64,000 nt of DNA from Bacillota bacterium (GTDB lineage Bacteria; Bacillota_A; Clostridia; Christensenellales; Aristaeellaceae), in assembly GCA_023421735.1 (NCBI GenBank), contig JAEZSP010000082.1, positions 1-64,000 on the forward strand. Reading direction: 5' to 3'. Of the stretch, positions 34,540 to 59,687 are shown one piece after another (position 1 is the stretch's first letter; every line of letters begins with the position of its first letter). The translations under genes and the position numbers were made by a program. The notes under the pieces were generated by a model that worked only from the letters and a program-made list of their open reading frames with translations, ran no database searches and was not told the origin of the DNA.

Positions 34540-34838
34540 GATTGTCTCCTTCCTCCGACTGTGTACGTCGGAAATCCGCTCTGGAGAGTTGTGTACAAAG
34601 AAAGTATATCATTGAGAACGTACAAAGTCAATAGAAAATGAACTCGATTTTCAACAAATACGCCGCACATATGCCCCACGAATTGGATCGCTTGCTGGCC
34701 GGGAGCCGTTTGCAGGCCGGATGTGTATTGCGTTTCAACAATTTGTGAACGTGCGCGTGCAAAGGCGCGCTTTTTCAGTTACCTTAAGGTTCGGTGGGTA
34801 TTCTATTGACATGGAAAAAGGACACCATGGAGGGTAGC
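34540..34838. other. Intergenic region between divergent genes at 34099 and 34839
   Basis: 299 bases. Contains the minus-strand promoter at 34603-34631, a small leader hairpin CCGAC-N6-GTCGG (34556-34571), and a terminator-like GCGCG/CGCGC hairpin followed by TTTTTC (about 34753-34778). No gene and no convincing plus-strand promoter were found. Confidence 0.45.
34603..34631 (-). promoter_or_regulatory. Sigma-A promoter of the short conserved protein
   Basis: Minus strand: TTGACT (34631-34626), 17-base spacer, TATACT (34608-34603). TTTGTAC occurs twice across the promoter and could be an operator half-site. Confidence 0.7.
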
Positions 34839-35759
34839 ATGAAGCTTTTTCAAAAAAAATACGTTTGGGCGATGCTCTATGCGTTCATTTTATTGACTTA
34901 CACGGCCTATACGCTGCTGGATGTATTCGTCATCCCGCGCACATACGCGGTGATTCCGCAAGCCTCCGCGCAGTCCGAGGAAACACAGGCCGAGGACACG
35001 CGGGAATCAGCTGCGCAAACGCCCGTCGTCACGGAGAATACATACAGTGATGAGAACGTGACCATCGTCCTGACGGAATATCGCGCCTACGATACCACGA
35101 TTTACGTTGCGGATATCACGCTTGCGCGCGCGGATCTTTTGTCAACCGCGCTTGCGCGGGGCGCATATGGGCGCAATCTCAAGGAAGTGACGAGTGCGAT
35201 CGCCCAGGAGAGGGGCGCGATCCTGGCGATCAACGGCGATTTTTACGGCGCGCGCACATCGGGTTATGTGATTCGAAACGGCGTCTTGTATCGCGCGACC
35301 GCCGCCTCGTCCTCGCAGGAGGATTTGGTGATTTACGAGGACGGAACATGCGCAATCATCCGCGAGGGAGATGTGACCGCCGAGGAACTCCTCGATGCCG
35401 GCGCCGTGCAGGTGATGTCCTTTGGCCCGGGGTTGATCGAAAACGGCAATGTCAGCGTGACGACCGGCGAAGAGGTCGACCAGGCGATGACGAGCAATCC
35501 GCGCACGGCAATCGGGATGATCGACGACCTGCATTACGTTATGGTGGTTGCGGACGGTCGCACGAGTGAGAGTGCAGGGCTTACGCTTTACGAACTTGCG
35601 ACGTTTATGCAGGGTTTGGGGGTCGAAACGGCATACAATCTCGACGGCGGCGGGTCATCGACCATGTACTTTAACGGCGAAGTGGTCAATCGCCCTACCA
35701 CCAACGGCAAATCCTTTGAAGAGAGGAGCGTGAGTGATATTGTCTGTATCTGCGATTAA
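34839..35759 (+). CDS. Phosphodiester glycosidase (NAGPA domain) family protein, membrane-anchored
   Basis: 306 residues. One N-terminal transmembrane helix (about 9-31, WAMLYAFILLTYTAYTLL) acts as signal anchor; a low-complexity linker follows. The NAGPA domain (about 95-305) carries AINGDFYG near the start and the hallmark YNLDGGGSSTMYFNG near the end, as in N-acetylglucosamine-1-phosphodiester glycosidases and bacterial DUF2233 proteins, many of which act on cell-wall polymers. The start at 34839 follows GGAGGG. It overlaps a small membrane protein gene by 26 bases. A degenerate paralogue lies at 58554-59534. Likely an extracytoplasmic hydrolase of a glycosyl-phosphodiester; the substrate is unknown. 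Confidence 0.85.
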   Translation: MKLFQKKYVWAMLYAFILLTYTAYTLLDVFVIPRTYAVIPQASAQSEETQAEDTRESAAQTPVVTENTYSDENVTIVLTEYRAYDTTIYVADITLARADLLSTALARGAYGRNLKEVTSAIAQERGAILAINGDFYGARTSGYVIRNGVLYRATAASSSQEDLVIYEDGTCAIIREGDVTAEELLDAGAVQVMSFGPGLIENGNVSVTTGEEVDQAMTSNPRTAIGMIDDLHYVMVVADGRTSESAGLTLYELATFMQGLGVETAYNLDGGGSSTMYFNGEVVNRPTTNGKSFEERSVSDIVCICD

Positions 35760-42236: not shown

Positions 42237-42899
42237 CTATATGCTCTCCCCGGTGTACGCCACAAGGGTGGCATCCATGACGCCGGACAGGGCGGAGACG
42301 CGGTTGAGGAACGCGTCCTGCTTTTCGACGCGGATTTCATAGGTCGCTTCGATGCCCGCGTTCGAGACGGTCTTGGACTTGAGCTTATAATACCTGAGTG
42401 TGCCGACGACCTGTGCGACGCCGCGCTCGGCGGAATCGCCCATGCGGACGACGAGCAGATAGCTGTTGAGCTTGGCGGACCATACTTTGGTAATCAAGGT
42501 AATGAGGATGGCGACGCCAATGAGGGTCATCAAGGTGAGGAAGAACTGCCCCGCGCCCAGGAGGATGCCCATGGTCAGCGCCCAGAACATGTATGCGGTA
42601 TCGAGCGGCTCCTTGACGGCCGTACGGAAACGAACGATGGAAAGCGCGCCGACCATACCCATGGAGAGCTGAATGGATTCTTTGATGCACATGACGACCG
42701 GGGTGGTGACGAGCGTCATCATCATCAGCGTCAGGGCGAAATTGCTCGAGTACATCACGCCCTTGTAATTGTACTTGTAGATCAACGCGATAATTAGCCC
42801 AAAGAAAAACGCGATGATCAGCGACGCGAGGATCGTGAACCACGACATCGGGCCGATCGACTGGGAACTGAGCAATTCCTTGATTAAGTCTTCTCTCAT
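42237..42899 (-). CDS. DUF4956 membrane protein (VTC/CotH module)
   Basis: 220 residues with four transmembrane helices: about 20-41, 50-70, 77-95 and 103-130. The hallmark GALSIVRFRTAVKEP follows helix 3, and a cytosolic C-terminal domain of about 85 residues follows, predicted alpha/beta. It is the third gene of the CotH-VTC-DUF4956 operon. A paralogue at 51270-51923 keeps the VRFR motif. DUF4956 has no established function; neighbouring a soluble VTC polyphosphate polymerase, it is a candidate membrane channel or anchor for the polymerase, by analogy with the helices of the yeast VTC complex (inference). Confidence 0.85.
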   Translation of the reverse strand: MREDLIKELLSSQSIGPMSWFTILASLIIAFFFGLIIALIYKYNYKGVMYSSNFALTLMMMTLVTTPVVMCIKESIQLSMGMVGALSIVRFRTAVKEPLDTAYMFWALTMGILLGAGQFFLTLMTLIGVAILITLITKVWSAKLNSYLLVVRMGDSAERGVAQVVGTLRYYKLKSKTVSNAGIEATYEIRVEKQDAFLNRVSALSGVMDATLVAYTGESI

Positions 42900-42945
42900 C
42901 GGGAGAACCCTCCTTCTTTCTGGTGCGGAAAAAATCCATTTTAGA

Positions 42946-43650
42946 TCAAATTACATGTTCGTATCTGCGCGCCATTGTATACTTCGAAATGGCGCTGCGT
43001 TCTGCGGAGAGTCCCCCAAGCAGGGCCGCGACAAAGTCCGGCAGATAGGAATTGAACTTCACTTCCAATATCTCCACATCCCGGTCGTGCGGACACACGG
43101 TGGGGATGTCCGGGTTGAACAGATCGATGCTGGAAAGACCCGTGCGCAGATGCATGTCAAACGTGATCCGAAGATCTCCGACCGGATACTCATACGCCTC
43201 GCGCACATAGTCCACGATCACCTTCGGCTTGAGAAGCCGCGTGCGCATCAGGAGGAACATCTCCTGAATGAGCGGACTTTGCGCGTTTTGGAGGCCGACC
43301 GGGTCGCCGTCGATCAATTTGTCGCATAGGCGCCGCGTGATTCGGACCGACGATTTTTGGATCAGGTTTCCGATTTTGCGCTTGCGCTCGAGGTAGATTT
43401 CCTCGCCCAGGAAATTATAGATGCGGATGCGGTACTTGTCTCGGTGCATAAAGCCGTTTTCCTTGTCGTGAAACGCGGTATTAAACGCGTCGTCAAAGTA
43501 CAGGGAGCGGATCATGTACGGCCCGCGCCGGCAATGGGGGTCGAGCCGCAAAACCGGCGAAAGCCGGGCGCGCAGCACGGCCAGCTCCGCAGGATTGACA
43601 AAGTATTTCAGCTCATGCCGCGCGGGGAGCGCCTGCCTTTTTTCTTGCAT
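42946..43650 (-). CDS. VTC-domain polyphosphate polymerase-like protein, copy 1
   Basis: 234 residues made of a single VTC tunnel domain. Conserved blocks: RHELKYF at the N-terminus, RSLYFDD, RDKYRIRIYN, the basic strand YLERKRKIGNLIQKSS, then EILEVKFN and SAISKYTMAR. These give the Lys/Arg-lined tunnel and acidic metal site of Vtc4-type polymerases that make polyphosphate from ATP. There are no membrane helices, unlike the eukaryotic protein; the adjacent DUF4956 gene may supply them. It lies ten bases after the CotH gene. Polymerase activity is expected from family, not shown. Confidence 0.85.
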   Translation of the reverse strand: MQEKRQALPARHELKYFVNPAELAVLRARLSPVLRLDPHCRRGPYMIRSLYFDDAFNTAFHDKENGFMHRDKYRIRIYNFLGEEIYLERKRKIGNLIQKSSVRITRRLCDKLIDGDPVGLQNAQSPLIQEMFLLMRTRLLKPKVIVDYVREAYEYPVGDLRITFDMHLRTGLSSIDLFNPDIPTVCPHDRDVEILEVKFNSYLPDFVAALLGGLSAERSAISKYTMARRYEHVI

Positions 43651-43660
43651 ATCTGCTCCT

Positions 43661-46600
43661 CTAATTTCCGTCGTCTTCCGCGTTCTGAATGGCCTGATAC
43701 GCCGTGCCGAAGTAGGTTTGCATCTGGCTGTCCGAGAGGTTCAGCGCATCCTGAAACCAGCCAAGAAGCTGCGCCGGTCTGGTTTTGGAGTAATTGGCGA
43801 ACTCCTTGAGATACTTGGCGTAGGTGGATTCCTTCATGCCCCATCGCGCAAACTGCGCCGGCAGTTCCGGCAGAAGCGCTTCGTATCGCGCCTTGATCAT
43901 CGCGTACACGTTTTCGGTGGAGTACGTCGTCGCCAATTGCTGGCCGAAATAGGTGAGGAATTCATCGCGGAACCGGTCGTTTTTCATGCAGGCGATAAAC
44001 AGGTCGTTGTTTGTGCGCTTTCCCTCGCCCATGCCGCCCGGCGCAAGCCAACGGCTGATGGAGTTGGTATCGACGGTAAATGCCCAGTCCAGATCGAACA
44101 GGCACCAGCGCCACAGGCCGTCTGCATTTGGGTTTCGATAGCGCTTGATATTGAGCGTGTCGCCGTTCCCGCTGAATATTTCAATGGACATGTATTCGAT
44201 ATAGTTTTGAATGTCGATCACCGAACCGATGTGCGCATATGCCTCGTCGGTATTCGTGTTGTGGTTATTGACCCACGTCAGCAAATCTGCGTAGGTGTCG
44301 TTTGATCCCTGCATCACGTTGGTATTTGCCTTCACGAGGTCGATGTCGTCCTCCTGTCCCTCCCAGCCCTCGAATTGGCAGATCGAGTAGGTGCTGATAT
44401 GTTCGCGCATGTAATACTGGCCCCAATAGACGCCGTTGATGTACACGACGCAAATCTCCGTCTTTTGATAATAGAGGTCCGTGCCGTCCGCAAGGTCGGT
44501 GAGCACGGAATCGCGCATACGCGCGTATATGCCGTCCTGCCCCGCCGCGCGCAGGAGAAAGGAGCTGTACTGCGTATAGTCGCGTGCGGTAAAAAGCGGT
44601 GCCTCAAACATCCCGTCTCCGGAATACGCCGAACGAGCGTAAATCTTAAACGCCTGCTGATCCATCGCGCGGCTGTATTGGCCGTGGAGCTTGACGCCGC
44701 ATTCCTGTGAGAGCAGGGGCGTACCGTCCGCCTCATAGATTTCGATGTGTCCCTCGCGCTCCCAGTCCATCCAGAAGTTTGCGCCCCGGTTCATGGAGCC
44801 GTAGGGGAAATCCTTATATGCATTCGGGCCCATGACCATGATGCCCGCCTCGTCGCTTGTGAGGTTATAGGGGTCGGAGACGAGCGAGACCACGCGCACC
44901 GTATGCGAGACGCCGAAAAAGTAGGTCTGCGAATCCATGTAGGATTCGAGCGCATTGTCCGCATACACCCGCGTGCGCAGAACCGTCGTCGAGGAGATCG
45001 TGATCGGCGCCGTGTAGAGCGTCGAGGACGTGGTCGGATCCGAGCAGTCGGTCGTATAATAAATGCGCTCGCCTTCCCCGGCGCTGAGTTCGACCGAGAT
45101 CGTCTCGCCCGTCTGGAAGAGTCCGCCTTCGACCGAGTAGGCTGCCGCCTGTGCCTTTTTGGCGTAGTGCGCGCCGGAATTGACCGCGAGGGGCGTCATG
45201 GTCGTGAAGTAATAAAGATCGCCATACTGATCGGGCATGCGGCCATAGGAGATATTCGAGAACTGTTGGGGCACGAAAATGCGGTCGAAGATCGCGCCGT
45301 CCGGCGTCGAAAGGCAAAGGTGGTAGCCGCCCGCCGCCGAAAGTCGAAAGCCCACGTTGAGGAACGAGCCGTTCTTGTCGGTGAGTCCTGAACAGTAGAC
45401 GCCCAGATAGCTTCCCGCCTCGATCATTGTGCCTGCCGGAAACTGCCACTTGCGCGGCTTATCCGCGTTGTCCGAAAATCCGTAATTTGAAAGGTCGATC
45501 GCATTGCCCGTCGCGTTGTAAAACTCCACCCAGTCGTATTTTTGCTGGGTGGTGGATGCGGCGACCTCGGTGATATAGATCCCAATCGAATTGAGCGCCG
45601 CGAACCGATCCGAGATCAGCGCGGCGCTTTCCTGCGTATTTGCCATGCCCGGCGTTGGTGCCGTGGAGGTTGTAAAGCTCCCGTCCGATTGTTTGGCGTA
45701 GGCCTCGTCGGCTTTCAGAAGTGGATAATCGATCGCGTCGACGAGCTGCCCCTTTTCATTTGAGAGGACGACCGATTCGCCCTCCGTGGAGAGCTTGAAC
45801 GACGCGGCGAGAAAGTCGCCCGCCGCCGAATCCGCCCCGGTGCACCAAATCAGGAGATAGCCGTCTGCGGGGATGCTCGTGCCATCGGGGATCGCATATT
45901 TCATGACGTCCGAGCGCGCGTCGCTTACGTGCCATCCGGAGATATCCACGGCCGAGTCCGACGCATTGTGAAGTTCGATGTAATCGTATAGCCCGCCGTT
46001 TGGCGCCGCATAGGATGCGTTTTTCGCCATGATTTCGGTGATTTCAACGGGGCTTTCGACCATGACGACGGCGAGGGATTTGTAATTTTCACTGGTGTTG
46101 AGAAGGCCGGGCGTATATTCGCTCGTGACCGACCAGGTTGCGTCGTCCACGCGCATATAGGATTCGTTGTTCTGCAGATCCGGCACGTTCACGGAATCGA
46201 CCGCCGTCCCCCGTGCGGAGAAGAGCATCAACGTGTCGCCTGCGCGGCTGATGGAAAACGGCGCGTGCAGTTCGTAATCCACGGTGTTGCGGTTTTTGCT
46301 GTCGCAGAAGACGATGACACATTCGCCCGGTTCAAGCGTCATTGAAGGGAATATAAACCGGTCGGTTGATTTTTCATTTTTCGCCAGCGTGATGCCGGAA
46401 AGATCGGCAGGTAAAGTGCCGGTATTCAGAATCTCCACCCAGTCGGCGCTTTCGCCGTCCTCGGTATAGAGGGCGGAATCATTTGCGGACATGATTTCGT
46501 TGAGCCGGATATCGGTGATCGCGTGAATTTCGGTGACGGTATCGTTTTCGGATTGCGTGTCGTCGTTTGAAAGCGTGAAGCCTTCCGGATGCGTGGATTG

Positions 46601-46732
46601 ATAGATGAAGGCCACGATGATGGCGATCAAGCCAAAGATGGAAAGGACGATGAGGTCGCCCTTTCCGCCGCGCCGTTTCGCGGGCGGCTTGCGCATGGTT
46701 CGATTGGCCAATTGGGCACCCCCCCATCTCAC
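43661..46732 (-). CDS. CotH-kinase surface protein with lamin-tail domains
   Basis: 1023 residues. A signal-anchor helix (about 26-45, LIVLSIFGLIAIIVAFIY) is followed by three lamin-tail beta-sandwich repeats (each with a WVEILNTG, YDYIELHNAS or YDWVEFYNAT strand, about 70-180, 235-340 and 385-500), then a chitobiase-like/Fn3-like segment (about 530-620, GERIYYTTDCSDPTTSS). The C-terminal CotH kinase-like domain is at about 640-1000, with GVKLHGQYSR, YINGVYWGQYYMREHI and the FDLDWAF metal-binding segment. It predicts an extracytoplasmic enzyme that phosphorylates surface proteins, as CotH does for spore coat. Promoter TTGTCT-17-TATACA is 29-57 bases upstream; AAAGGA is the ribosome binding site. 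It heads the operon with VTC and DUF4956 genes. Confidence 0.88.
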   Translation of the reverse strand: MRWGGAQLANRTMRKPPAKRRGGKGDLIVLSIFGLIAIIVAFIYQSTHPEGFTLSNDDTQSENDTVTEIHAITDIRLNEIMSANDSALYTEDGESADWVEILNTGTLPADLSGITLAKNEKSTDRFIFPSMTLEPGECVIVFCDSKNRNTVDYELHAPFSISRAGDTLMLFSARGTAVDSVNVPDLQNNESYMRVDDATWSVTSEYTPGLLNTSENYKSLAVVMVESPVEITEIMAKNASYAAPNGGLYDYIELHNASDSAVDISGWHVSDARSDVMKYAIPDGTSIPADGYLLIWCTGADSAAGDFLAASFKLSTEGESVVLSNEKGQLVDAIDYPLLKADEAYAKQSDGSFTTSTAPTPGMANTQESAALISDRFAALNSIGIYITEVAASTTQQKYDWVEFYNATGNAIDLSNYGFSDNADKPRKWQFPAGTMIEAGSYLGVYCSGLTDKNGSFLNVGFRLSAAGGYHLCLSTPDGAIFDRIFVPQQFSNISYGRMPDQYGDLYYFTTMTPLAVNSGAHYAKKAQAAAYSVEGGLFQTGETISVELSAGEGERIYYTTDCSDPTTSSTLYTAPITISSTTVLRTRVYADNALESYMDSQTYFFGVSHTVRVVSLVSDPYNLTSDEAGIMVMGPNAYKDFPYGSMNRGANFWMDWEREGHIEIYEADGTPLLSQECGVKLHGQYSRAMDQQAFKIYARSAYSGDGMFEAPLFTARDYTQYSSFLLRAAGQDGIYARMRDSVLTDLADGTDLYYQKTEICVVYINGVYWGQYYMREHISTYSICQFEGWEGQEDDIDLVKANTNVMQGSNDTYADLLTWVNNHNTNTDEAYAHIGSVIDIQNYIEYMSIEIFSGNGDTLNIKRYRNPNADGLWRWCLFDLDWAFTVDTNSISRWLAPGGMGEGKRTNNDLFIACMKNDRFRDEFLTYFGQQLATTYSTENVYAMIKARYEALLPELPAQFARWGMKESTYAKYLKEFANYSKTRPAQLLGWFQDALNLSDSQMQTYFGTAYQAIQNAEDDGN

Positions 46733-46760
46733 ATATCCTTTACATCATAGCGCATATGTC

Positions 46761-46789
46761 TGTATAATGCGATGATAAAGTACAGACAA
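46761..46789 (-). promoter_or_regulatory. Sigma-A promoter of the CotH-VTC-DUF4956 operon
   Basis: Minus strand: TTGTCT (46789-46784), 17-base spacer, TATACA (46766-46761). A vegetative-type promoter argues against a purely sporulation-specific role. Confidence 0.65.
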
Positions 46790-46871
46790 ATGTACGAATA
46801 TTTTGTAAACGGGCGTGACGGGGACGCCGCAAACGGCATATTGTGCGAGTGGGGGCGAATGGAGGATACCC

Positions 46872-47390
46872 ATGGACGATATGCGATTTGCGAAACTCGA
46901 TGAGACTTACATGGACGAAATGCTAGAAATACAAAAAATCTGCTGGGAGAAGACGCCGGGACTTTTCGTCATGAGCAGCCGGGAGGCGTATCTGAGGGCG
47001 TTTGAATTCGATAATTTCGTGGTTGGCGTGATTGACGGCGAGCATCTCGTCGGTTTTTTGAATTGCGCGGCCCATAACCGCCGCTCGGGCATGAATCTTG
47101 GGCGGCACCTCGATTATTCGCCCGAGATGCTCGACCGGGTTGGCCATTTAAACACCGTGCTGATGCGTCCTGATCATCGGGGTCGCGGACTCGCGCTCCG
47201 GCTCGTCGAAATGGCGATTCGGGAATTCCCCGCGCACGTCCGCTACCTGATGGCGACGACCGCTCCGTGGAACACCGCCGCGCAGCGAATTCTAAACGAA
47301 TTCGGGTTCGACAGACAGGGAGATGAGATTGAGGTCTCGGGTCAAAGGAGACTCCTGTTTGTGCGCGATCTCGAACAGCACCCCAAATGA
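46872..47390 (+). CDS. GNAT-family N-acetyltransferase
   Basis: 172 residues. The acetyl-CoA loop RPDHRGRGLALRLVE (about 103-117) fits the Q/RxxGxG/A motif, followed by the terminal WNTAAQRILNEFGF strand-helix. The start at 46872 follows TGGAGG. Monocistronic with a terminator. The acceptor substrate is unknown. Confidence 0.88.
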   Translation: MDDMRFAKLDETYMDEMLEIQKICWEKTPGLFVMSSREAYLRAFEFDNFVVGVIDGEHLVGFLNCAAHNRRSGMNLGRHLDYSPEMLDRVGHLNTVLMRPDHRGRGLALRLVEMAIREFPAHVRYLMATTAPWNTAAQRILNEFGFDRQGDEIEVSGQRRLLFVRDLEQHPK

Positions 47391-47394
47391 ACGA

Positions 47395-47424
47395 GACCCC
47401 CGGTGCGCCGGGGGTCCAGTTTTT
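47395..47424 (+). terminator. Rho-independent terminator of the GNAT gene
   Basis: GACCCCCGG-TGCG-CCGGGGGTC, then CAGTTTTTT. It is also placed to serve the convergent ytfJ gene. Confidence 0.9.
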
Positions 47425-47428
47425 TCTG

Positions 47429-47896
47429 TTATTCAGCAGGTACTTCGGGAAGCGGCCCCTCGGGTGGGATGCTCTGCGCACTCTTCTTGCGGGGCCGTTC
47501 TTTTTCTTCGCGGCACTCCCTGCGCGCGTTTGTGCGCGCGAGGACGGTTTTCAATTCTTCCATCAAATCGGGAATCAATTCGATGATCCGATCAGTGGCG
47601 TGTTCGGTCATTGCGGGCAGCATCCGCACGTGATTGTCGCCGCAGACCAGAAAGCCCACGGGCTGTATCGTCACGCCGGCACCCGCCCCGCCCGCAAAGG
47701 GGTAATTCTGGCTCGCCTTGTCGGGCGAGTATTCGCCGCCGCCCGCGACAAAGCCGAAGCTCACCTTTGAAACGGGGACAACCGTCGAGCCGTCCTGCGC
47801 CACGATCGCGTCGCCGAGCACGGTGTTGACGTCCACCATGTCGCGGATCGACTCCATCGCGGTGTCCATCAGCCCGTGAATGGGGTGTCTTTCCAT
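47429..47896 (-). CDS. ytfJ: GerW/YtfJ-family sporulation protein
   Basis: 155 residues. The conserved core (HPIHGLMDTAMESIRDMVDV, GDAIVAQDGSTVVPVSKVSFG, FVAGGGEY, GGAGAGVTIQPVGFLV) is the YtfJ signature. In Bacillus subtilis the protein is made in the forespore and is needed for normal germination. The start at 47896 follows CGGAGGA. The C-terminal tail is basic (EEKERPRKKSAQ). The neighbouring DUF2953 gene is the same partner as in Bacillus (ytfI-ytfJ), supporting a spore-forming or recently spore-forming lineage. Confidence 0.92.
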   Translation of the reverse strand: MERHPIHGLMDTAMESIRDMVDVNTVLGDAIVAQDGSTVVPVSKVSFGFVAGGGEYSPDKASQNYPFAGGAGAGVTIQPVGFLVCGDNHVRMLPAMTEHATDRIIELIPDLMEELKTVLARTNARRECREEKERPRKKSAQSIPPEGPLPEVPAE

Positions 47897-47900
47897 GATA

Positions 47901-48356
47901 TCATCCTCCGGTGCCGCGCAATATAAACGCAAGTGCGGCCTTCATAATATGTCCAGCCGTGAGCCGCGCTATGCCGTGTGCCTCGCCCGCGAGCGTTTTA
48001 TGCGCAAAATCCGGCGTCACGCGCACTTGTCCCGCGGCGTGCGTCGCGGCGCGCAGCATATCCAAAACCACCACGAGAAGTCCGCAGGTTTCTGCGGTCA
48101 GTGCCGCGTCGCCCGTTCCGAGGACGAGATTGACCTCGAGCCGTTCGAGCGTCACGGATTTGACGATGCGAAAGATGAGCCCGATCGGCACGCGCTTTTT
48201 CAGCTTTTTTTTCTTGCGCGGCTTATGCGCGCGCGGATGCGCCCGAAACGCGCCCACGCCAAAGCGCAGCCCGTGTGCGTCGATCCGGACGGCAAACACG
48301 AGTGGCAGATTATAGAAATAGATTGCGCACATGACAAGCGCCGCGACCCAATGCAA
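47901..48356 (-). CDS. ytfI: DUF2953 protein (YtfI-like)
   Basis: 151 residues from a TTG start at 48356, chosen because GAGGAGGT lies six bases upstream; the upstream ATG at 48374 would place that site inside the gene. An N-terminal membrane helix (about 2-22, VAALVMCAIYFYNLPLVFAV) is followed by a basic loop (HKPRKKKKLKKRVP) and a beta-rich domain with LERLEVNLVLGTGDAALTA. This is the YtfI/DUF2953 pattern, here slightly shorter than usual. It lies four bases before ytfJ. Confidence 0.8.
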   Translation of the reverse strand: MHWVAALVMCAIYFYNLPLVFAVRIDAHGLRFGVGAFRAHPRAHKPRKKKKLKKRVPIGLIFRIVKSVTLERLEVNLVLGTGDAALTAETCGLLVVVLDMLRAATHAAGQVRVTPDFAHKTLAGEAHGIARLTAGHIMKAALAFILRGTGG

Positions 48357-48443
48357 AGACGCACCTCCTCGCATCTATTTTGTCCGGACATGCCCAAATT
48401 TACCAATTTATATGATAAAATAATTGGAGAAGGAGGGAGAACA

Positions 48444-49637
48444 ATGGCCGATTTAAGGGTATTTGCAAAGACGATTGAGGACGAAGCGCTGCGGCAGGTT
48501 GAAATGCTGCTCGCGCAGGAGCCCTTTCGGGACTGCAAGGTACGGATCATGCCCGATGTGCACGCCGGAAAGGGCTGCGTGATCGGCTTCACGGCCGACC
48601 TTGGCGACAAGGTCATTCCGAACATCGTGGGCGTCGACATCGGCTGTGGTATGCTGACGATCGAATGGGGAAAGGTGGAACTCTCCCTCGACGCGCTTGA
48701 TCGGACGATTCGTGAAAAGGTGCCATTTGGGCGAAACGTCCACGACGGACGCGTGGCGCGCTTTCCGCAGATGCTCGATTTGCGGTGCTACCGCGACCTC
48801 AAGGACGCCAAACGCTTGGAAAGGAGCATCGGTTCGCTCGGGGGCGGGAACCATTTCATTGAAGTGGACGCGGACGATCCGGGGAACAAGTACCTCGTCA
48901 TCCATACCGGCAGCCGCAATCTCGGAAAACAGGTGGCGGAGTATTATCAAAAGCTTGCAATCGATCTCATGTCGGGGAAGGATGCGCTGTTTGCCGCGCA
49001 GAAAAAGCTGATCGCGGATTATAAGGCTGCGGGCAGACGCGCTGAAATTCAGGCGGAGATCAAAAAGCTCTATCAATCGTTTCGAGGGAAAAAGCCCGAC
49101 GTGCCGGATGCGCTTTGCTATCTCACGGGCGAATACCGCGACGATTATCTGCACGATATGCGCATCTGTCAGGCATACGCGGTCCAAAACCGCGCGACCA
49201 TCGCGGAGATTTTGTGCGGGGCGATGGGTCTTTCGGAAAAAGGGCGGTTCGAGACCATTCACAATTACATTGACCACGATTCGAACATCGTGCGCAAGGG
49301 CGCCATCCGTGCGGCAAAGGGCGAACGATTGCTCATTCCCATCAACATGCGTGACGGCTGCATCGTGGGGATCGGCAAGGGCAACGACGACTGGAACCAG
49401 TCCGCGCCGCACGGGGCGGGCAGGTTGATGAGCCGACACAAGGCGCGCGAGGTGCTCTCGCTGGATGAATACCAAAAAAGCATGGCTGATATCTTCACGA
49501 CCTCGGTTGGCGCAGATACCATCGACGAGGCGCCCATGGCCTACAAGCCCATGGACGAAATCCTCGAAACGATTGGGGATACGGTGGAGGTCGACCGCAT
49601 CATCCATCCGATTTATAACTTCAAGGCGAGCGAATAA
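48444..49637 (+). CDS. rtcB: RtcB-family RNA-splicing ligase
   Basis: 397 residues. GTP- and Mn-dependent ligase joining 2',3'-cyclic phosphate or 3'-phosphate RNA ends to 5'-OH. The active-site Cys68 lies in GVDIGCGM; GGGNHFIEV, HTGSRNLGK and GAGRLMSRHKA contribute metal and GMP-binding residues, and the guanylylated His lies in the later APHGAGR block. The start at 48444 follows AAGGAGGG; the frame is open upstream but without a site. No rtcA, archease or rtcR is adjacent, so it is an orphan copy, probably in RNA repair. It is shorter than the E. coli enzyme, as many Firmicute homologues are. Confidence 0.93.
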   Translation: MADLRVFAKTIEDEALRQVEMLLAQEPFRDCKVRIMPDVHAGKGCVIGFTADLGDKVIPNIVGVDIGCGMLTIEWGKVELSLDALDRTIREKVPFGRNVHDGRVARFPQMLDLRCYRDLKDAKRLERSIGSLGGGNHFIEVDADDPGNKYLVIHTGSRNLGKQVAEYYQKLAIDLMSGKDALFAAQKKLIADYKAAGRRAEIQAEIKKLYQSFRGKKPDVPDALCYLTGEYRDDYLHDMRICQAYAVQNRATIAEILCGAMGLSEKGRFETIHNYIDHDSNIVRKGAIRAAKGERLLIPINMRDGCIVGIGKGNDDWNQSAPHGAGRLMSRHKAREVLSLDEYQKSMADIFTTSVGADTIDEAPMAYKPMDEILETIGDTVEVDRIIHPIYNFKASE

Positions 49638-49690
49638 AAATGATAGGCGCATGCGCGCCGTTTGAATAGAAATGAGTGCGAGGTGATTGC

Positions 49691-50431
49691 ATGGGCGAGC
49701 GGGAGCGGCGCATCCTGGAGATTCTGTTGACGGAAAAACGGGCGGAGGTCGCACAACTCGCGCAGCTTTTGGGCGTGTCGCAGGTCACGGTGCGCAAGGA
49801 TCTGGACGCGCTCGAGCGACGCGGGGTCATTTTGCGCGAGCATGGCTATGCGCGCCTGCGCAGTCAGGACGACATGAATGGACGGCTCGCCTATCATTAT
49901 GAGGAAAAGCAAAAGATTGCGCGCGCGGCCGCGCGGCTCGTCTCGTTTGGCGAGACGGTGATGATTGAGAGCGGAAGCTGCTGTGCGCTGCTTGCGGAGG
50001 CATTGGTGGAAAAATCCGTCTCCATTATTACAAACAGCGCTTTCATTGCAGCGCGCGTGCGCGTGCTGCCCGGGGCGAAGGTGATCCTTTTGGGCGGCGC
50101 TTATCAAAATGACGCGCAGGTGACGGTCGGACCGCTCGTCGCGCAGTGTGCCAAAAGTTTTCTCGTAGACAGGCTCTTTATCGGTACGGACGGATATTCT
50201 CCGGACGCGGGATTCACCAACGCCGATCATATGCGCGCGCAGGCCGTGCGCGACATGGCGGCGCAAGCCGCCGGCGTCGTTGTTTTGACGCAGAGCGAAA
50301 AGTTTGCACGGCGCGGGGTCGTCCCACTTTTGATTGACAGGCAAATTGAAAAGGTGATTACCGATGCCGGCATTCCGCCGGATGCGCGGCGTGCGCTTGC
50401 CGCGCACGGGATCGACATCATATGCACTTAG
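49691..50431 (+). CDS. DeoR-family transcriptional regulator
   Basis: 246 residues. The DeoR helix-turn-helix (ERERRILEILLTEKRAEVAQ, then VSQVTVRKDLDALERRGVI) is followed by a sugar-phosphate-sensing DeoRC domain (MIESGSCCALLAEAL, TNSAFIAARV, VDRLFIGTDGYSPDAG). The start at 49691 follows GCGAGGTG. It ends at a strong terminator. Located between rtcB and the second VTC operon, it could regulate either or a distant sugar pathway. Confidence 0.9.
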   Translation: MGERERRILEILLTEKRAEVAQLAQLLGVSQVTVRKDLDALERRGVILREHGYARLRSQDDMNGRLAYHYEEKQKIARAAARLVSFGETVMIESGSCCALLAEALVEKSVSIITNSAFIAARVRVLPGAKVILLGGAYQNDAQVTVGPLVAQCAKSFLVDRLFIGTDGYSPDAGFTNADHMRAQAVRDMAAQAAGVVVLTQSEKFARRGVVPLLIDRQIEKVITDAGIPPDARRALAAHGIDIICT

Positions 50432-50455
50432 GCCGCCGAAGGGCGGTCTTTTTTT
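50431..50455 (+). terminator. Rho-independent terminator of the deoR-type gene
   Basis: GGCCGCC-GAAG-GGCGGTC followed by seven T. Confidence 0.88.
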
Positions 50456-50563
50456 ATGGACAGAATTTGAACAAACCGAGAACTTGATCTTTGGCGGCAC
50501 TTTTCTTTAATAATCATTTAGGTTGGGCGGTTACAATAGCGCCATGGAAGGGAGGTCACGATC

Positions 50564-51277
50564 ATGGCACAGCAGATTTTCAGGCGCGTAGAGAATAAAT
50601 ACGTTCTTTCGTGCACGCAATATCATCAGCTTATGCGTGGGATCGCGGACAAAATCACAATCGATCAGTATGGCAGGCATACGATTCGCAACATCTATTT
50701 CGACACGCCGGATTTTCGGTTGCTCCGCGCATCCATTGACGCGCCGGTGTACAAGGAAAAACTTCGGTTGCGCGGCTATGGGCGCGTGCGCGATGACGAT
50801 ATGGTGTTTCTGGAACTCAAGAAAAAATATAAGGGGATTGTCTACAAGCGCCGGGTTGCGCTTCCCCTTTCGGTCGCACAGACGGCGCTTGCGGAGAATT
50901 CGGCGGCGGATTGTCAGATCATGCGCGAGATCGATTACTTCGCGCGGCTCTATCAGCCGCTTCTGCCGCGCATTTTCCTCGCCTACGAGCGCCGTGCGTA
51001 CACGTTTCCGGGAGAACCCGACCTGCGGCTCACCTTTGATGAGAACATCCGTGCGCGCATGGACGATGTGCGGCTCGACGGCGGCGATGCGGGTGAGCTG
51101 CTCCTTTCCCCGGGCGACATAGTGATGGAATTGAAGATTCCCGGCGCGGTTCCGCTCTGGTTGGCGAAGGCGTTCGCAGAATGCGATATTTTTCCGCGCG
51201 GCTTTTCAAAAGTCGGCACCTATTATGTCTCCCGGGTGATGGGCGGCATCGAAAGGATTGAAAAACGCTATGCTTGA
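50564..51277 (+). CDS. VTC-domain polyphosphate polymerase-like protein, copy 2
   Basis: 237 residues, a single VTC domain. Tunnel motifs are intact: FRRVENKYV, RNIYFDTPDF, KEKLRLRGYG, the basic strand FLELKKKYKGIVYKRR, then VMELKIPGAVPLWLAK and FSKVGTYYVS. It is more like the classical VTC consensus than copy 1 at 42946. Ribosome binding site GGGAGG. Its end overlaps the DUF4956 gene start by eight bases. Expected to polymerise phosphate from ATP; direction and acceptor are unknown. Confidence 0.88.
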   Translation: MAQQIFRRVENKYVLSCTQYHQLMRGIADKITIDQYGRHTIRNIYFDTPDFRLLRASIDAPVYKEKLRLRGYGRVRDDDMVFLELKKKYKGIVYKRRVALPLSVAQTALAENSAADCQIMREIDYFARLYQPLLPRIFLAYERRAYTFPGEPDLRLTFDENIRARMDDVRLDGGDAGELLLSPGDIVMELKIPGAVPLWLAKAFAECDIFPRGFSKVGTYYVSRVMGGIERIEKRYA

Positions 51278-51923
51278 GGCACTCATGAATCTCTCGTTTG
51301 CCGAATTTGCACTTTCGACCGGCGCGTCGGTCGCGCTGGGCGTTTTGATCGCGCTTTTATACCGGCGTGCATCGTCGGCGAGCAAATCGTTCCTTGTGAC
51401 GCTCGCGATGATGCCGACTTTGGTCGGTGCGGTCATCACGCTGGTCAACGGAAATCTGGGTGCGGGGGTTGCGGTCGCGGGCGCGTTCAGCCTCGTCCGG
51501 TTCCGTTCTGCGCCCGGAAGCGCCCGAGAGATCGGGTACATATTCATGGCGACTGCCGTGGGTATCGCGACCGGCATGGGCTACGCGCTGTACGCCGTCC
51601 TTCTGTTTTTCGTGCTCGCAGGTCTTATGTTCGCGCTCGAACGGACGAATTTCGGTGAATGCGCGCGTGCTGATCGGCAGCTCAAAATTACCATTCCGGA
51701 AGATCTTGACTATGCGGGACTGTTTGACGATCTGTTTGCGCGTTATGCGAAGCGCGCGGAGCTCGTGCGCGTCAAGACGACGAACATGGGGAGCCTGTTT
51801 GAACTGACATACGAAATCACGCTGCGCGACCAGATGATCGAAAAGACATTTATCGATGAGCTGCGTTGCCGCAACGGAAACTTGAATATCACCTGCGGCA
51901 AGGTTGCGGCGGGCGAACTGTAA
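51270..51923 (+). CDS. DUF4956 membrane protein (VTC/beta-helix module)
   Basis: 217 residues with about four transmembrane helices within residues 15-125 and the same GAFSLVRFRSAPGS motif as the paralogue at 42237. The C-terminal cytosolic domain (from about 130, RQLKITIPEDLDYAGLFDDL) is alpha/beta. The ATG at 51270 is preferred; a TTG at 51258 would sit immediately on the AAAGGA site. Its overlap with the VTC stop implies translational coupling, supporting a physical complex with the polymerase (inference). Confidence 0.85.
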   Translation: MLEALMNLSFAEFALSTGASVALGVLIALLYRRASSASKSFLVTLAMMPTLVGAVITLVNGNLGAGVAVAGAFSLVRFRSAPGSAREIGYIFMATAVGIATGMGYALYAVLLFFVLAGLMFALERTNFGECARADRQLKITIPEDLDYAGLFDDLFARYAKRAELVRVKTTNMGSLFELTYEITLRDQMIEKTFIDELRCRNGNLNITCGKVAAGEL

Positions 51924-51932
51924 GGGAGCCAT

Positions 51933-53651
51933 ATGAAAAAGTTATTATTGTTATTACTGAGCCTCGTGCTCATGGCAGGCCTCGCGGCTTGCGCAGTAAC
52001 GAACGCGGAAGACCGGCAAAGCGCGCTCACGGTCAACGGCGACGCGGTCACCGTCGACGCGGACGGGACGTATACCATCACAACCGGGGGAACATACGAA
52101 CTCTCCGGCACGCTCGATGGACAGATTTGGATTGACGCCAAGGAAGAAACGGTCACGCTGATTCTAAACGGCGTGGATATCAAGAGTGGGCTCTCCTCCG
52201 CCATCTACATCCAAAAGGCGGAGGCGGTGACCATCGAACTGGCAGAGGGCAGCGAAAACCGCCTCTCGGACGCCGCCGATTACACCTACGACGACCAAGC
52301 CGAGGAAGAGCCGGACGGCACGATCTTTTCAAAATCGGATCTTGTCATTCAGGGCACAGGGAGTCTCGAGATTCAGGCAAACCACAGCTACGCCATCCGC
52401 ACGAAGGACGCCCTCACGATCGCGACGGGCACGTATGAAATCACATCCGCTGATACCGGCATTCGTGCGGGCGACAGTGTAACCATCGCGGGCGGCGATC
52501 TCACGATCACTTCCGGAAACGACGGAATCCGCGCAAGCAATGACACCGATGAGACGCTCGGATGGGTTCTCGTTTCCGGAGGGACAATCCGGATTTCCGC
52601 GGCGTGCGACGGCATTCAGGCAGAGACGGATCTCACCGTCACGGGCGGCACAATCGAAATTGCCACGAGCGGTGCGATTGCGGGAGATGATACCAGCGCC
52701 AAGGGATTGAAGGCGGGCGGCAACATCGCCATCTCCGGCGGAGAAATGACGCTGAACACGGACGACGACGGCGTGCATGCAAACGGAAACGTTTCCGTTG
52801 TGGATGGAACCCTGACCATTTCTTCCGGCGACGACGGCATGCATGCGGACGCCGACATGACCGTTTCCGGCGGCACGGTCACGATCACACAATCCTACGA
52901 GGGCATTGAAGGCAAAAATCTCGTCATCTCCGGCGGCACAATCCACATCACGTCTTCGGACGACGGCCTCAATGCGGGAGGCGGAGCGGACGGCTCTTCC
53001 TTCGGGCGAATGGGTGCGAACACATTCGCGAGCGGCAGTGATTACTCGCTGGAAATCAGCGGCGGGTTCATCGTGATCCATGCGCAGGGCGACGGCGTCG
53101 ATTCCAACGGCGATCTGACCATCTCCGGCGGCGTGACGCTCGTCAGCGGGCCGACGAGCGATGGCAACGGCGCGATGGACAGCGGCGACGGCGCGACATT
53201 CAAAGTCACCGGCGGCATCCTCATCGCGGCGGGCAGCTCCGGCATGGCCGAAACGCCCGGCGGCACATCGACGCAGAATTCCATCTCGGTCGGGCTGACG
53301 GGTTCGGCGGGCGAACTCGTGTCCATCGCGGATGCGAATGGAAATGTACTCTATGCGTTTTCGCCTGAAAAGGCCTACGCAAATGTGCTGATCTCTGCAC
53401 CGGACATCACGACGGGCGAAACGTATACCGTGTGCCTCGGCGGTACGGCGAGCGGACTGGATGCAGACGGCTATCAGAAGGCCGGATCGGTATCCGGCGG
53501 ACAGGCAGTTGGCAGCGCGACCGTCGGTTCGTACCTCTCGACGATCGGAAACGTTTCGACAAGCGGCTTTGGCGGCATGAATGATTGGAACCGCCAGGGC
53601 GGTCAGATGCCGAGTGGTCAGATGCCCGGCGGACAGCGCCCGGGATATTGA
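51933..53651 (+). CDS. Beta-helix lipoprotein of the Cthe_2159 (carbohydrate-binding) family
   Basis: 572 residues. Lipoprotein signal MKKLLLLLLSLVLMAGLAAC with lipobox LAAC, so anchored to the outer face of the membrane at Cys20. The body is a long series of about 20-25-residue repeats ending in motifs such as SGGTITI, DDGVHA, DDGMHA and DDGLNA, forming a right-handed parallel beta-helix with Asp-Asp calcium-type sites, as in Cthe_2159, a cellulose/pectate-binding protein. The tail is Gly/Gln/Met-rich (GGQMPSGQMPGGQRPGY). It lies nine bases after the DUF4956 gene and closes the operon. A surface adhesin or carbohydrate-binding role is plausible; the link to polyphosphate is unexplained. Confidence 0.85.
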   Translation: MKKLLLLLLSLVLMAGLAACAVTNAEDRQSALTVNGDAVTVDADGTYTITTGGTYELSGTLDGQIWIDAKEETVTLILNGVDIKSGLSSAIYIQKAEAVTIELAEGSENRLSDAADYTYDDQAEEEPDGTIFSKSDLVIQGTGSLEIQANHSYAIRTKDALTIATGTYEITSADTGIRAGDSVTIAGGDLTITSGNDGIRASNDTDETLGWVLVSGGTIRISAACDGIQAETDLTVTGGTIEIATSGAIAGDDTSAKGLKAGGNIAISGGEMTLNTDDDGVHANGNVSVVDGTLTISSGDDGMHADADMTVSGGTVTITQSYEGIEGKNLVISGGTIHITSSDDGLNAGGGADGSSFGRMGANTFASGSDYSLEISGGFIVIHAQGDGVDSNGDLTISGGVTLVSGPTSDGNGAMDSGDGATFKVTGGILIAAGSSGMAETPGGTSTQNSISVGLTGSAGELVSIADANGNVLYAFSPEKAYANVLISAPDITTGETYTVCLGGTASGLDADGYQKAGSVSGGQAVGSATVGSYLSTIGNVSTSGFGGMNDWNRQGGQMPSGQMPGGQRPGY

Positions 53652-53665
53652 CCGCACAACAACAC

Positions 53666-53699
53666 GCTCCCAGCCAAAGGGCATGGGAGCGCCTTTTTT
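53666..53699 (+). terminator. Rho-independent terminator of the VTC/beta-helix operon
   Basis: GCTCCCA and TGGGAGC around an 11-base loop, then GCCTTTTTT. Confidence 0.85.
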
Positions 53700-58281: not shown

Positions 58282-58557
58282 TCACTTTCCGCGTTTCTCC
58301 CGTCTTTCCCGCAGTTCCATGTACGTGCGCAGCGCGCGCAGGCGGGCGAGCGCAGTCAGGTGAAAAGCTGCGTTGACGATGGACAGGAAGGCAAGGGCAA
58401 AGAGCAACCACTTGGTGGTCTGATTGGCAAGGAAGCTCATTTCGCCGCGCTTGACCTGATCGATGAGAAACAGGGCGATGAGCACGGCCGAGAGGATAAT
58501 GATGAGGTGGGAGAGAATCCGGAGTATGAGATTGACGACAGGGCGTCCGGTCGTCAT
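58282..58557 (-). CDS. Small membrane protein (two helices)
   Basis: 91 residues with two transmembrane helices (about 9-32 and 50-74) and a basic tail (RTYMELRERREKRGK). The start at 58557 overlaps the upstream stop as ATGA; an alternative ATG at 58584 has GGAGG ten bases upstream and would add nine residues. No family is recognised. Coupled to a degenerate NAGPA-like gene, paralleling the pairing at 34839/35734, where a phosphodiester glycosidase is also followed by an overlapping small membrane protein. Confidence 0.6.
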   Translation of the reverse strand: MTTGRPVVNLILRILSHLIIILSAVLIALFLIDQVKRGEMSFLANQTTKWLLFALAFLSIVNAAFHLTALARLRALRTYMELRERREKRGK

Positions 58558-59534
58558 CTCGGGATCAAGATCATGTCGCTGCATTCGCGCTTAGCCTCCT
58601 GATGTAAACTGATTTCTGCGCCGTCGAAATCCATTTCGGCAAGCGTCCCCCCATAGAGTGCATAGGCGGATTCACAGCCCAGCGCACGCATGGTTTCGCT
58701 CAGCGATTCGAGGGTTACGTAGCCCTCCATGATGACGAAGCAGTAGTGTCCCGGTTCATAGTATCCGAATGCCGCGCGCCGCCCCGGCAGGAGCATGTCC
58801 GTGTCGTATTCGGACGGAATCGATCCATCCGCGAGCAGAATCGGGCCAAAGCTCCAAATCTGAACGGGGTGCTTATCCATGACATGCGTCAGGTTAAACG
58901 CGGCAGGCGCGTAGAGATCGACCGTGCCATCCCAGTTGAGCACGCATACATCCCGATCGGCCGTTTTGGAATACAGGATGCCGTTTCGCATGATCACGCC
59001 GCCGTAGCGCTCGGAATAATTGTCGCCCGTGATGGCAAAAAGCGCGTCATTCTGCGCCGCGATGGACTGCGCGCGCGCGCGTTGTCCCTTGCCGTAGGTG
59101 TCGTTGGCGAGCGCGGTTTGAAGCCGCGAAAGATCGGACACGAAGACGTCCGCTACGTATACGGGCCCTGTTGAGAGCGCGTAGGTCGTGATCGTCAGCT
59201 CGCAGCTCGCGTCATAATAATAGGTGGTGTCTCCATCGATACGCGTCTCGGGCGTGCTGTGTAAAAAACGCCCGTCGAACGAAAAATAGCCCAGGTCGCC
59301 GCCGTTGTCCGTGGATTTGCTTTCGCCTGAAATGAAGTAGGCGCTCCCGCTGCGCGGAGATGCAATGCCAACGCCCGGCTCGGCCCGCACGATGCCGTAG
59401 CGAAAAAAAATGAAAAAGAAGATCCCGAGCGCGACGCACAGAACGTCCGCGCCCACGATGAGGAGCGTTTTTTTAAGCTTCGCCGCGTCATATGGGGTGC
59501 CGTCCCGGACAACCAGCTTCCATCTGTCGTTCAT
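58554..59534 (-). CDS. Membrane-anchored NAGPA-like protein lacking the DGGGS motif
   Basis: 326 residues with one transmembrane helix (about 25-47, LLIVGADVLCVALGIFFFIF), then a domain aligned by eye with the phosphodiester glycosidase at 34839: GPVYVADVFVSDLSRLQTAL, FAITGDNYSERYGGVIMRNG, IWSFGPILLADGS and the terminal EAKRECSDMILI. At the place of the catalytic YNLDGGGSST it reads YALYGGTLAEM, so key residues are gone and the protein may bind but not cleave. The start at 59534 follows GGAGG. Likely extracytoplasmic; role unknown. Confidence 0.75.
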   Translation of the reverse strand: MNDRWKLVVRDGTPYDAAKLKKTLLIVGADVLCVALGIFFFIFFRYGIVRAEPGVGIASPRSGSAYFISGESKSTDNGGDLGYFSFDGRFLHSTPETRIDGDTTYYYDASCELTITTYALSTGPVYVADVFVSDLSRLQTALANDTYGKGQRARAQSIAAQNDALFAITGDNYSERYGGVIMRNGILYSKTADRDVCVLNWDGTVDLYAPAAFNLTHVMDKHPVQIWSFGPILLADGSIPSEYDTDMLLPGRRAAFGYYEPGHYCFVIMEGYVTLESLSETMRALGCESAYALYGGTLAEMDFDGAEISLHQEAKRECSDMILIPR

Positions 59535-59687
59535 CGCGCCATCCTCCGCTTTCATCAAATTATACCATCCGGCGCGCCGAAAAGCAAGAATCATCGAATG
59601 AGGCGGTGTAAACGTTTGTTTTTCGGTTTCGGGCACATGTTTTCGCGTGTTTACCAATATTTAACCATAAAATCGCGCGCTGAGGGC

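Follow-up and report, generated by a model that had tools for sequence, protein, structure and literature searches.

We analysed a window of 64,000 nucleotides (positions 1 to 64,000 of contig JAEZSP010000082.1, assembly GCA_023421735.1) from a Bacillota bacterium of the Aristaeellaceae, in which two three-gene modules each combine a VTC protein, a DUF4956 protein and a surface protein. A preliminary description of this DNA had proposed two such modules with different surface partners, and both modules and their coordinates were confirmed by Pfam searches and by reading of the sequence. The features are as follows.

43661-46732, minus strand: CotH/lamin-tail protein of 1023 residues, surface partner of module 1 (Pfam)
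42946-43650, minus strand: VTC (PF09359) of module 1, clade A, 234 residues (Pfam E 3e-35)
42237-42899, minus strand: DUF4956 (PF16316) of module 1 (Pfam E 7.5e-11)
50564-51277, plus strand: VTC (PF09359) of module 2, clade B, 237 residues (Pfam E 1e-34)
51270-51923, plus strand: DUF4956 (PF16316) of module 2 (Pfam E 5e-19, scanned from 51258)
51933-53651, plus strand: Cthe_2159 (PF14262), surface partner of module 2 (Pfam E 2e-87)
50430-50449, plus strand: terminator-like hairpin 5' of module 2, at the end of a DeoR-family gene
53676-53697, plus strand: terminator-like hairpin 3' of module 2

The gene order on the minus strand is CotH/lamin-tail, VTC, DUF4956 in module 1, and on the plus strand it is VTC, DUF4956, Cthe_2159 in module 2, with about 3.8 kb between the oppositely oriented modules. 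Both are tightly packed like operons and have stretches resembling ribosome-binding sites. In module 1, 10 bp separate CotH from VTC and 46 bp separate VTC from DUF4956; in module 2, the start codon of DUF4956 (ATG at 51270) overlaps the stop codon of VTC, and DUF4956 and Cthe_2159 are spaced by 9 bp. As the two copies share only 22% (VTC) and 21% (DUF4956) identity and belong to different VTC clades, a recent duplication was rejected. The six module proteins had no match in NCBIfam.

The VTC profile was matched at positions 2-231 and 2-226 of 235 in the two copies (Pfam, E about 1e-35). The conserved tunnel residues are R11, E13, K15, R74, R76, K90, R150, E196, K198, and K223 in copy 1 and R8, E10, K12, R68, R70, K86, R143, E189, K191, and K216 in copy 2. 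R68, R70, and E189 of copy 2 (R74, R76, and E196 of copy 1) align with R264, R266, and E426 of Vtc4, the three residues whose substitution inactivated the yeast complex, and are conserved at 100%, 100%, and 98% among 91 VTC sequences; 22 columns are invariant among 40 sequences. Equivalents of K200 and K458, which we take to be important in Vtc4, are present in the window VTCs, and the C-terminal SK lysine is retained in the bacterial proteins. A phmmer search with copy 1 matched no PDB sequence, and with a profile of 40 VTC sequences all ten PDB matches at E<=1e-3 were VTC chains, with 3g3q as the best (E 4e-23). We predict that the window VTCs are polyphosphate polymerases of the triphosphate tunnel metalloenzyme (TTM) fold.

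It could be argued that bacterial VTC is another TTM enzyme, namely a tripolyphosphatase or a nucleotide-triphosphate phosphohydrolase. Bacterial VTCs have a glutamate (E10) at the position of a Vtc4 threonine, Foldseek also matched the YgiF triphosphatase and class IV adenylate cyclase-like proteins, albeit with weaker E values than VTC, and no assay of any bacterial VTC was found in the open-access literature searched (preprints outside scope). As the profile matched VTC chains exclusively and as the catalytic R, R, and E together with the SK lysine are retained, we consider this alternative improbable. In comparison to the yeast VTC complex (Vtc1/Vtc3/Vtc4; PDB 8i6v, 7ytj, 3g3q), the bacterial modules have the same TTM polymerase domain with its tunnel residues kept, but they have an extra surface partner and no SPX domain; at E<=1e-3, Pfam recognized only VTC, and only DUF4956 in the adjoining protein, with neither SPX nor a Vtc1-type transmembrane domain found.

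To place the modules in a wider context, we used 147 Clostridia-class genomes and 151 genomes of the Bacilli class, to which Lysinibacillus telephonicus (G003) belongs, 298 in total; the nearest relative in the collection (L001, 63% VTC identity) served as the starting point. The 137 VTC matches (97 in the Clostridia class and 40 in the Bacilli class) had a DUF4956 gene within 3 kb in 130 cases (90/97 and 40/40), always on the same strand and downstream of VTC in 129 of the 130. Among the seven unpaired VTCs, five were partial or low-scoring matches, one (G097) was on a 3.2 kb contig, and in G041 the two genes were on different contigs. At the level of genomes in the first set, 74 had both genes, 2 had VTC only, 2 had DUF4956 only (both below cut-off), and 69 had neither. 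This co-occurrence was far beyond chance (Fisher P 7e-37, 147 genomes), and the corresponding refutation test named in the preliminary description did not refute its interpretation. Among 14 control genomes, both genes were found in the same three (Bacteroides ihuae, Corynebacterium glutamicum, and Methanosarcina acetivorans), and the C. glutamicum genome also matched the CotH family.

The pairwise distances of VTC and DUF4956 correlated with r=0.91 over 85 pairs, a value that stems partly from the shared descent of adjoining genes, and 1000 permutations reached at most 0.08. A joined query listed 120 clusters, of which 35 contained both Pfam domains in one chain, and seven of these fusions aligned with at least 220 VTC and at least 185 DUF4956 residues of the window proteins. 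A model of fusion P0243 (pLDDT 83) had its best PDB matches in Foldseek with the yeast VTC complex and 3g3q/3g3r, and its pTM of 0.53 makes the domain arrangement unreliable. Because of the near-obligate adjacency, the co-divergence, and the one-chain fusions, VTC and DUF4956 behave as one unit. Of the 97 stretches fetched, L136, L137, and L138 had no VTC gene in the simple gene caller and were left out of the tree and the neighbourhood counts. With regard to the two modules of the window, their closeness looks incidental, as the 13 Clostridia-class genomes with at least two analysed modules had them on different contigs in 12 cases (draft contigs that could still be neighbours) and 1.3 Mb apart in one; two modules about 20 kb apart were seen in one Bacilli-class genome (G196).

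The surface partners gave a clear pattern. Within 8 kb on either strand, CotH was found at 61 of the 130 modules, Cthe_2159 at 45, neither at 24, and both at none (42, 26, 22, and 0 of 90 in the Clostridia class; 19, 19, 2, and 0 of 40 in the Bacilli class). When only the same strand was counted, the Clostridia-class numbers were unchanged and the Bacilli-class numbers were 17, 14, 9, and 0. If the partners were independent, 12.1 and 9.0 modules with both would be expected in the two sets (P 9e-10 and 1.6e-9, values that treat modules as independent and ignore kinship). CotH and Cthe_2159 are alternative partners, with at most one kind per module. The co-occurrence survey suggested in the preliminary description yielded a near-obligate pair, most units of which have CotH or Cthe_2159. 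The CotH counts of 42 (by distance) and 40 (by gene order, for proteins on the tree) differ by method. After removal of rows, 112 and 51 CotH places and 67 and 25 Cthe_2159 places remained in the two sets; the removed rows were extra stretches of counted genes, weak matches (CotH in G030; Cthe_2159 in G043, G051, G059, and G229), and weak second Cthe_2159 genes elsewhere, and by eye none of the weak removed genes was within 8 kb of a VTC.

A quickly built tree of 91 VTC proteins splits into two clades with an SH-aLRT (approximate likelihood ratio test) support of 98%. The clade with window copy 1 contained 36 CotH, 5 Cthe_2159, 3 partnerless, and 2 undecided modules, and the clade with copy 2 contained 22 Cthe_2159, 18 partnerless, and 5 CotH modules. 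As the partner label required at least 21 changes on the tree (23 if the undecided rows form a group of their own) against a mean of 41.5 after shuffling, with none of 200 shuffles as low, partner and engine are linked on this tree, yet partners were exchanged or lost repeatedly; on their own, the starred branches already require 6-8 changes per group, and the long branches L131, L132, and L135 are unsure. Two Cthe_2159 partners, L116 (z 9.8) and L096 (z 6.0), matched the N-terminal membrane anchor of their relatives' CotH. Since the outside domain differs in these proteins while the anchor stayed, the kept anchor suggests, without proving it, a contact with the VTC-DUF4956 engine. An anchor common to all partners was not supported: L096 and L116 were the only clear cases among 19 Cthe_2159 partners (18 of 27 sampled plus that of the window), L079 was marginal (z 4.3 over 22 residues), the window protein had z 3.7, and the rest were below 4. 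A shared third partner for modules with neither protein was also rejected, as none was seen beside 19 of the 21 such modules on the tree when the N-terminal 60 residues and membrane segments were read. Many of these modules look like stand-alone VTC-DUF4956 pairs, some of them with a divergent two-component system.

The CotH protein of the window (43661-46732, with an ATG at 46696 as a possible alternative start) comprises an N-terminal membrane anchor, three lamin-tail domain (LTD) stretches, Fn3_assoc/CHB_HEX_C_1, and a CotH domain at residues 680-985 that covers profile positions 1-318 of 322 (Pfam E 2.6e-36). The columns conserved at 85% or more in 43 CotH partners are present (G684, D733, G771, Y773, E777, D840, N856, D858, and D880), and by spacing we take D858 and D880 to equal the catalytic/metal Asp of Bacillus CotH. 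As an N-terminal hydrophobic segment was found in 44 of 45 CotH proteins including that of the window, the exception being cut by a contig end, the kinase-fold domain is probably outside the membrane. A phmmer search with the CotH protein matched no PDB sequence. The window Cthe_2159 protein is a beta-helix with a lipoprotein-like N-terminus and a G/Q/M/P-rich tail (the ends by sequence reading) and matched the solved structures 4peu/4phb with 133 bits; presumably, Cthe_2159 binds calcium. The family is described as binding cellulose and acid sugars (PMC6712302).

The preliminary description had stated that no function was described for this gene grouping, which does not hold. A set of cotH, a polyphosphate polymerase gene (PPP), and DUF4956 beside Pel genes was described in 2020 (PMC7112168, partial text), and mutants were characterized in Streptococcus intermedius, where SIR_1592, SIR_1593, and SIR_1594 in the Gram-positive pel locus represent, as far as the available portions of PMC12345266 and PMC7112168 go, the same three gene kinds. 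SIR_1592 is described there as a protein with four transmembrane segments, MgtC transmembrane plus ACT, which by our own reading is DUF4956. Its deletion raised the amount of Pel and lowered aggregation, deletion of the CotH gene SIR_1594 likewise reduced aggregation and changed the amount of Pel, and the excerpt reports no change of either for deletion of the polyphosphate polymerase gene SIR_1593 (PMC12345266). In the same excerpt, which leaves the scope of the search unseen, the authors state that they met no such trio away from the Pel locus; this does not hold in the genomes sampled here, where most CotH modules are away from Pel genes. The window differs from the pel accessory set in that no Pel genes are among its scanned neighbours and in that module 2 has Cthe_2159 and not CotH. 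The Cthe_2159 alternative, mutual exclusion, kept anchor, pairing statistics, and fusions were not found in the open-access literature searched, preprints excluded.

The relationship of DUF4956 bears directly on what the modules could do. HHalign aligned DUF4956 with MgtC/SapB (PF02308) at 98.6% probability and E 8e-15 over 216 columns (89 against 21 sequences, with 85 of the 89 DUF4956 rows kept and 21 of 30 MgtC loci having a usable reading frame), and controls gave at most 0.3% with 20 shuffled or reversed alignments and 0 with PelG. Each of the two models, PF16316 and PF02308, picks up part of the other family at scores under the cut-off, and the matches of related DUF4956 genes to PF02308 all stay under that limit; the window proteins matched PF16316 without a PF02308 match (Pfam E<=1e-3). 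On this alignment, which includes the C-terminal domain, DUF4956 is a full-length MgtC/SapB relative, though not assigned to that family, and it differs by its own Pfam family, its RFR motif, and its tie to VTC. The motif is R90-F91-R92 in copy 1 and R81-F82-R83 in copy 2 (numbered from 51258), with conservation of 97%, 93%, and 100%. An AlphaFold model of copy 2 (pLDDT 81) shows membrane helices and, at the C-terminus, an ACT/ferredoxin-like domain; the matches in a fold search spanned residues 136-221, and the membrane part was barely tested. A phmmer search with DUF4956 matched no PDB sequence. The JGI label 'YhiD involved in acid resistance', carried by some homologues, is in keeping with the MgtC relationship. 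In contrast to yeast, where the membrane part consists of Vtc1-type helices, it would here be a separate, sometimes fused, MgtC-like protein with an ACT-like domain, and the RFR motif recalls the basic residues of TM1 (transmembrane helix 1) in the yeast channel, as a likeness only.

Because DUF4956 is an MgtC relative and the described MgtC actions, on PhoR and ATP synthase, are regulatory (PMC6658541), a regulatory role competes with that of a membrane path. In a purely regulatory module, DUF4956 would act in the membrane like MgtC and control a sensor kinase or the ATP/phosphate balance, VTC would make triphosphate or short polyphosphate chains that serve as a local signal or drain ATP, the surface protein would be a co-regulated output, and nothing would cross the membrane. 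The full-length homology including the ACT-like domain, the SIR_1592 phenotypes next to no reported change for the VTC deletion, and the binding of PhoR by Salmonella MgtC with activation of phosphate transport (PMC6658541) are in line with such a role. So is an enrichment of OmpR-type response regulators at a distance of 1-4 genes from VTC (36/675 genes versus 3/393 further off within those stretches, P 6e-5). However, MgtC places above cut-off were not near VTC (none within 70 kb on one contig, by eye), and the adjacency of DUF4956 to VTC in 130/137 cases with one-to-one pairing, co-divergence, and fusions points to a direct complex, which by itself would also be compatible with a regulatory role. 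We regard regulation as the main rival, although it is less likely than the machine proposed below. As a separate observation, OmpR-type response regulator and histidine kinase genes often flank VTC-DUF4956 in the sampled neighbourhoods, divergently or downstream, whereas the genes read next to the two window modules included no such gene.

We prefer the reading that VTC and DUF4956 would together form a single membrane-bound machine, each contributing one half. It would be the bacterial equivalent of the yeast VTC complex, with the MgtC-like DUF4956 standing in for the transmembrane helices of the yeast enzyme itself. At the cytosolic face, VTC would use ATP to make polyphosphate, DUF4956 would dock VTC to the membrane and pass or hold the chain there, and the unit would serve a single exchangeable surface protein, which can be a Cthe_2159 beta-helix or a CotH protein with the kinase fold. 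For cytosolic synthesis, an MgtC-like membrane partner, and one exchangeable surface protein taken jointly, we estimate a probability of about 0.5; that the pair forms one complex deserves a higher value, and export a lower one. Polyphosphate synthesis, the physical contact of VTC and DUF4956, membrane passage, and use of the polymer by the surface protein are what we infer, as is export of a phosphate polymer or its attachment to the surface protein, and phosphoryl transfer by CotH and polymer binding by Cthe_2159 are both guesses. As little or no extracellular ATP is expected, yet the CotH kinase fold appears to be anchored outside, exported polyphosphate might be the phosphoryl donor with which CotH phosphorylates surface proteins or exopolysaccharide, or CotH might attach the chain, and in the Cthe_2159 build the beta-helix might hold a polyphosphate coat; this joint extension is quite doubtful. 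If true, it would be a membrane-spanning kinase system powered by polyphosphate. Should the preferred reading hold, VTC-type polyphosphate would be a cell-surface output, rather than only a store, in many Firmicutes and perhaps, judging from the control genomes, in Bacteroidota, Actinomycetota, and one archaeon. The DUF4956 family would then gain a near-obligate partner, MgtC-like proteins would be linked to polyphosphate, and there would be a possible answer to the phosphate source of an extracellular kinase.

Several points weigh against the proposed machine. The S. intermedius mutants are the strongest evidence against VTC as an essential part, at least for that trait, because effects were seen on deletion of SIR_1592 and CotH and none is reported for VTC, which is hard to square with an essential engine. 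In 28 of the 35 fusions, one of the two halves aligns incompletely, and P0246 has a slipped frame, which happens easily with overlapping genes; the domain arrangement in the fusion model is unreliable. The exclusivity statistics leave kinship aside. As 22/90 Clostridia-class and 2/40 Bacilli-class modules had no CotH or Cthe_2159 within 8 kb, some of them at contig ends, a module does not require a surface partner in cis; conversely, CotH was away from VTC at 68/112 and 31/51 places, likewise many Cthe_2159 genes, and the anchor match was clear in only 2 of the 19 partners. At L139 (G101:C13), DUF4956 adjoins Cthe_2159, the stretch fetched there contains no VTC match, and genome G101 has VTC on other contigs.

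The roughly one quarter of Clostridia-class modules without a CotH or Cthe_2159 neighbour would also suit ordinary phosphate storage, with VTC as a PPK1 substitute and the neighbours as passengers. However, partner exclusivity repeats in two classes, and the presence of VTC was unrelated to that of PPK1 (31 genomes with both, 45 with VTC only, 21 with PPK1 only, and 50 with neither; P 0.17, 147 genomes), so that replacement of PPK1 by VTC was not supported and we regard this explanation as very improbable.

With respect to other neighbours, we searched the 40 CotH modules on the tree for seven Pel and NELoc-2-like genes by phmmer with single queries in the fetched stretches of up to 8 kb on each side, some of them cut by contig ends. 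Three modules had at least two of the four Pel-locus genes, and L123 had PelG alone; six had at least two of the three NELoc-2-like genes, and two more had one; the remaining 28 had no match. The NELoc-2 locus of Clostridium perfringens is described as having CotH, HEAT, and glycosyltransferase genes next to two pairs of VTC and 'tubulin' genes (PMC2879425); in our reading, the 'tubulin/FtsZ' genes resemble DUF4956 in their order and length. The pairs of NELoc-2 are inside a polysaccharide-type locus, a layout of which only the six sampled modules above have two or more genes. Downstream of CotH in L076, L078, L084, L086, L088, and L104, we observed a conserved protein of about 720 residues together with HEAT and glycosyltransferase-2 genes, which form a polysaccharide-type locus resembling NELoc-2 and distinct from Pel. 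A family of 285-288 residues was seen one gene upstream of VTC in L056, L060, L063, and L069, and its members in L060 and L063 have a lipoprotein-like start and by eye resemble ComEC-type metallo-beta-lactamase domains.

In the window itself, no Pel families were found among the proteins scanned by Pfam (a subset of the open reading frames), and Rfam gave no match at the gathering score. A plasmid search yielded only two distant DUF4956 genes, and a phage search one match of 129 bases near the end of the stretch. Between 39 and 58 kb, the neighbours are cupin, GNAT, YtfJ, DeoR, and RtcB by Pfam and purA, LysR, MarR, and two ABC exporters by reading of the sequence. Two proteins with NAGPA phosphodiester-glycosidase domains are encoded at 34794-35759 (plus strand) and 58554-59657 (minus strand). 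A perfect 8-bp inverted repeat (TGTCTGTA/TACAGACA, 16-bp gap) at 46757-46788, which lies between module 1 and the divergently oriented GNAT gene, may be an operator.

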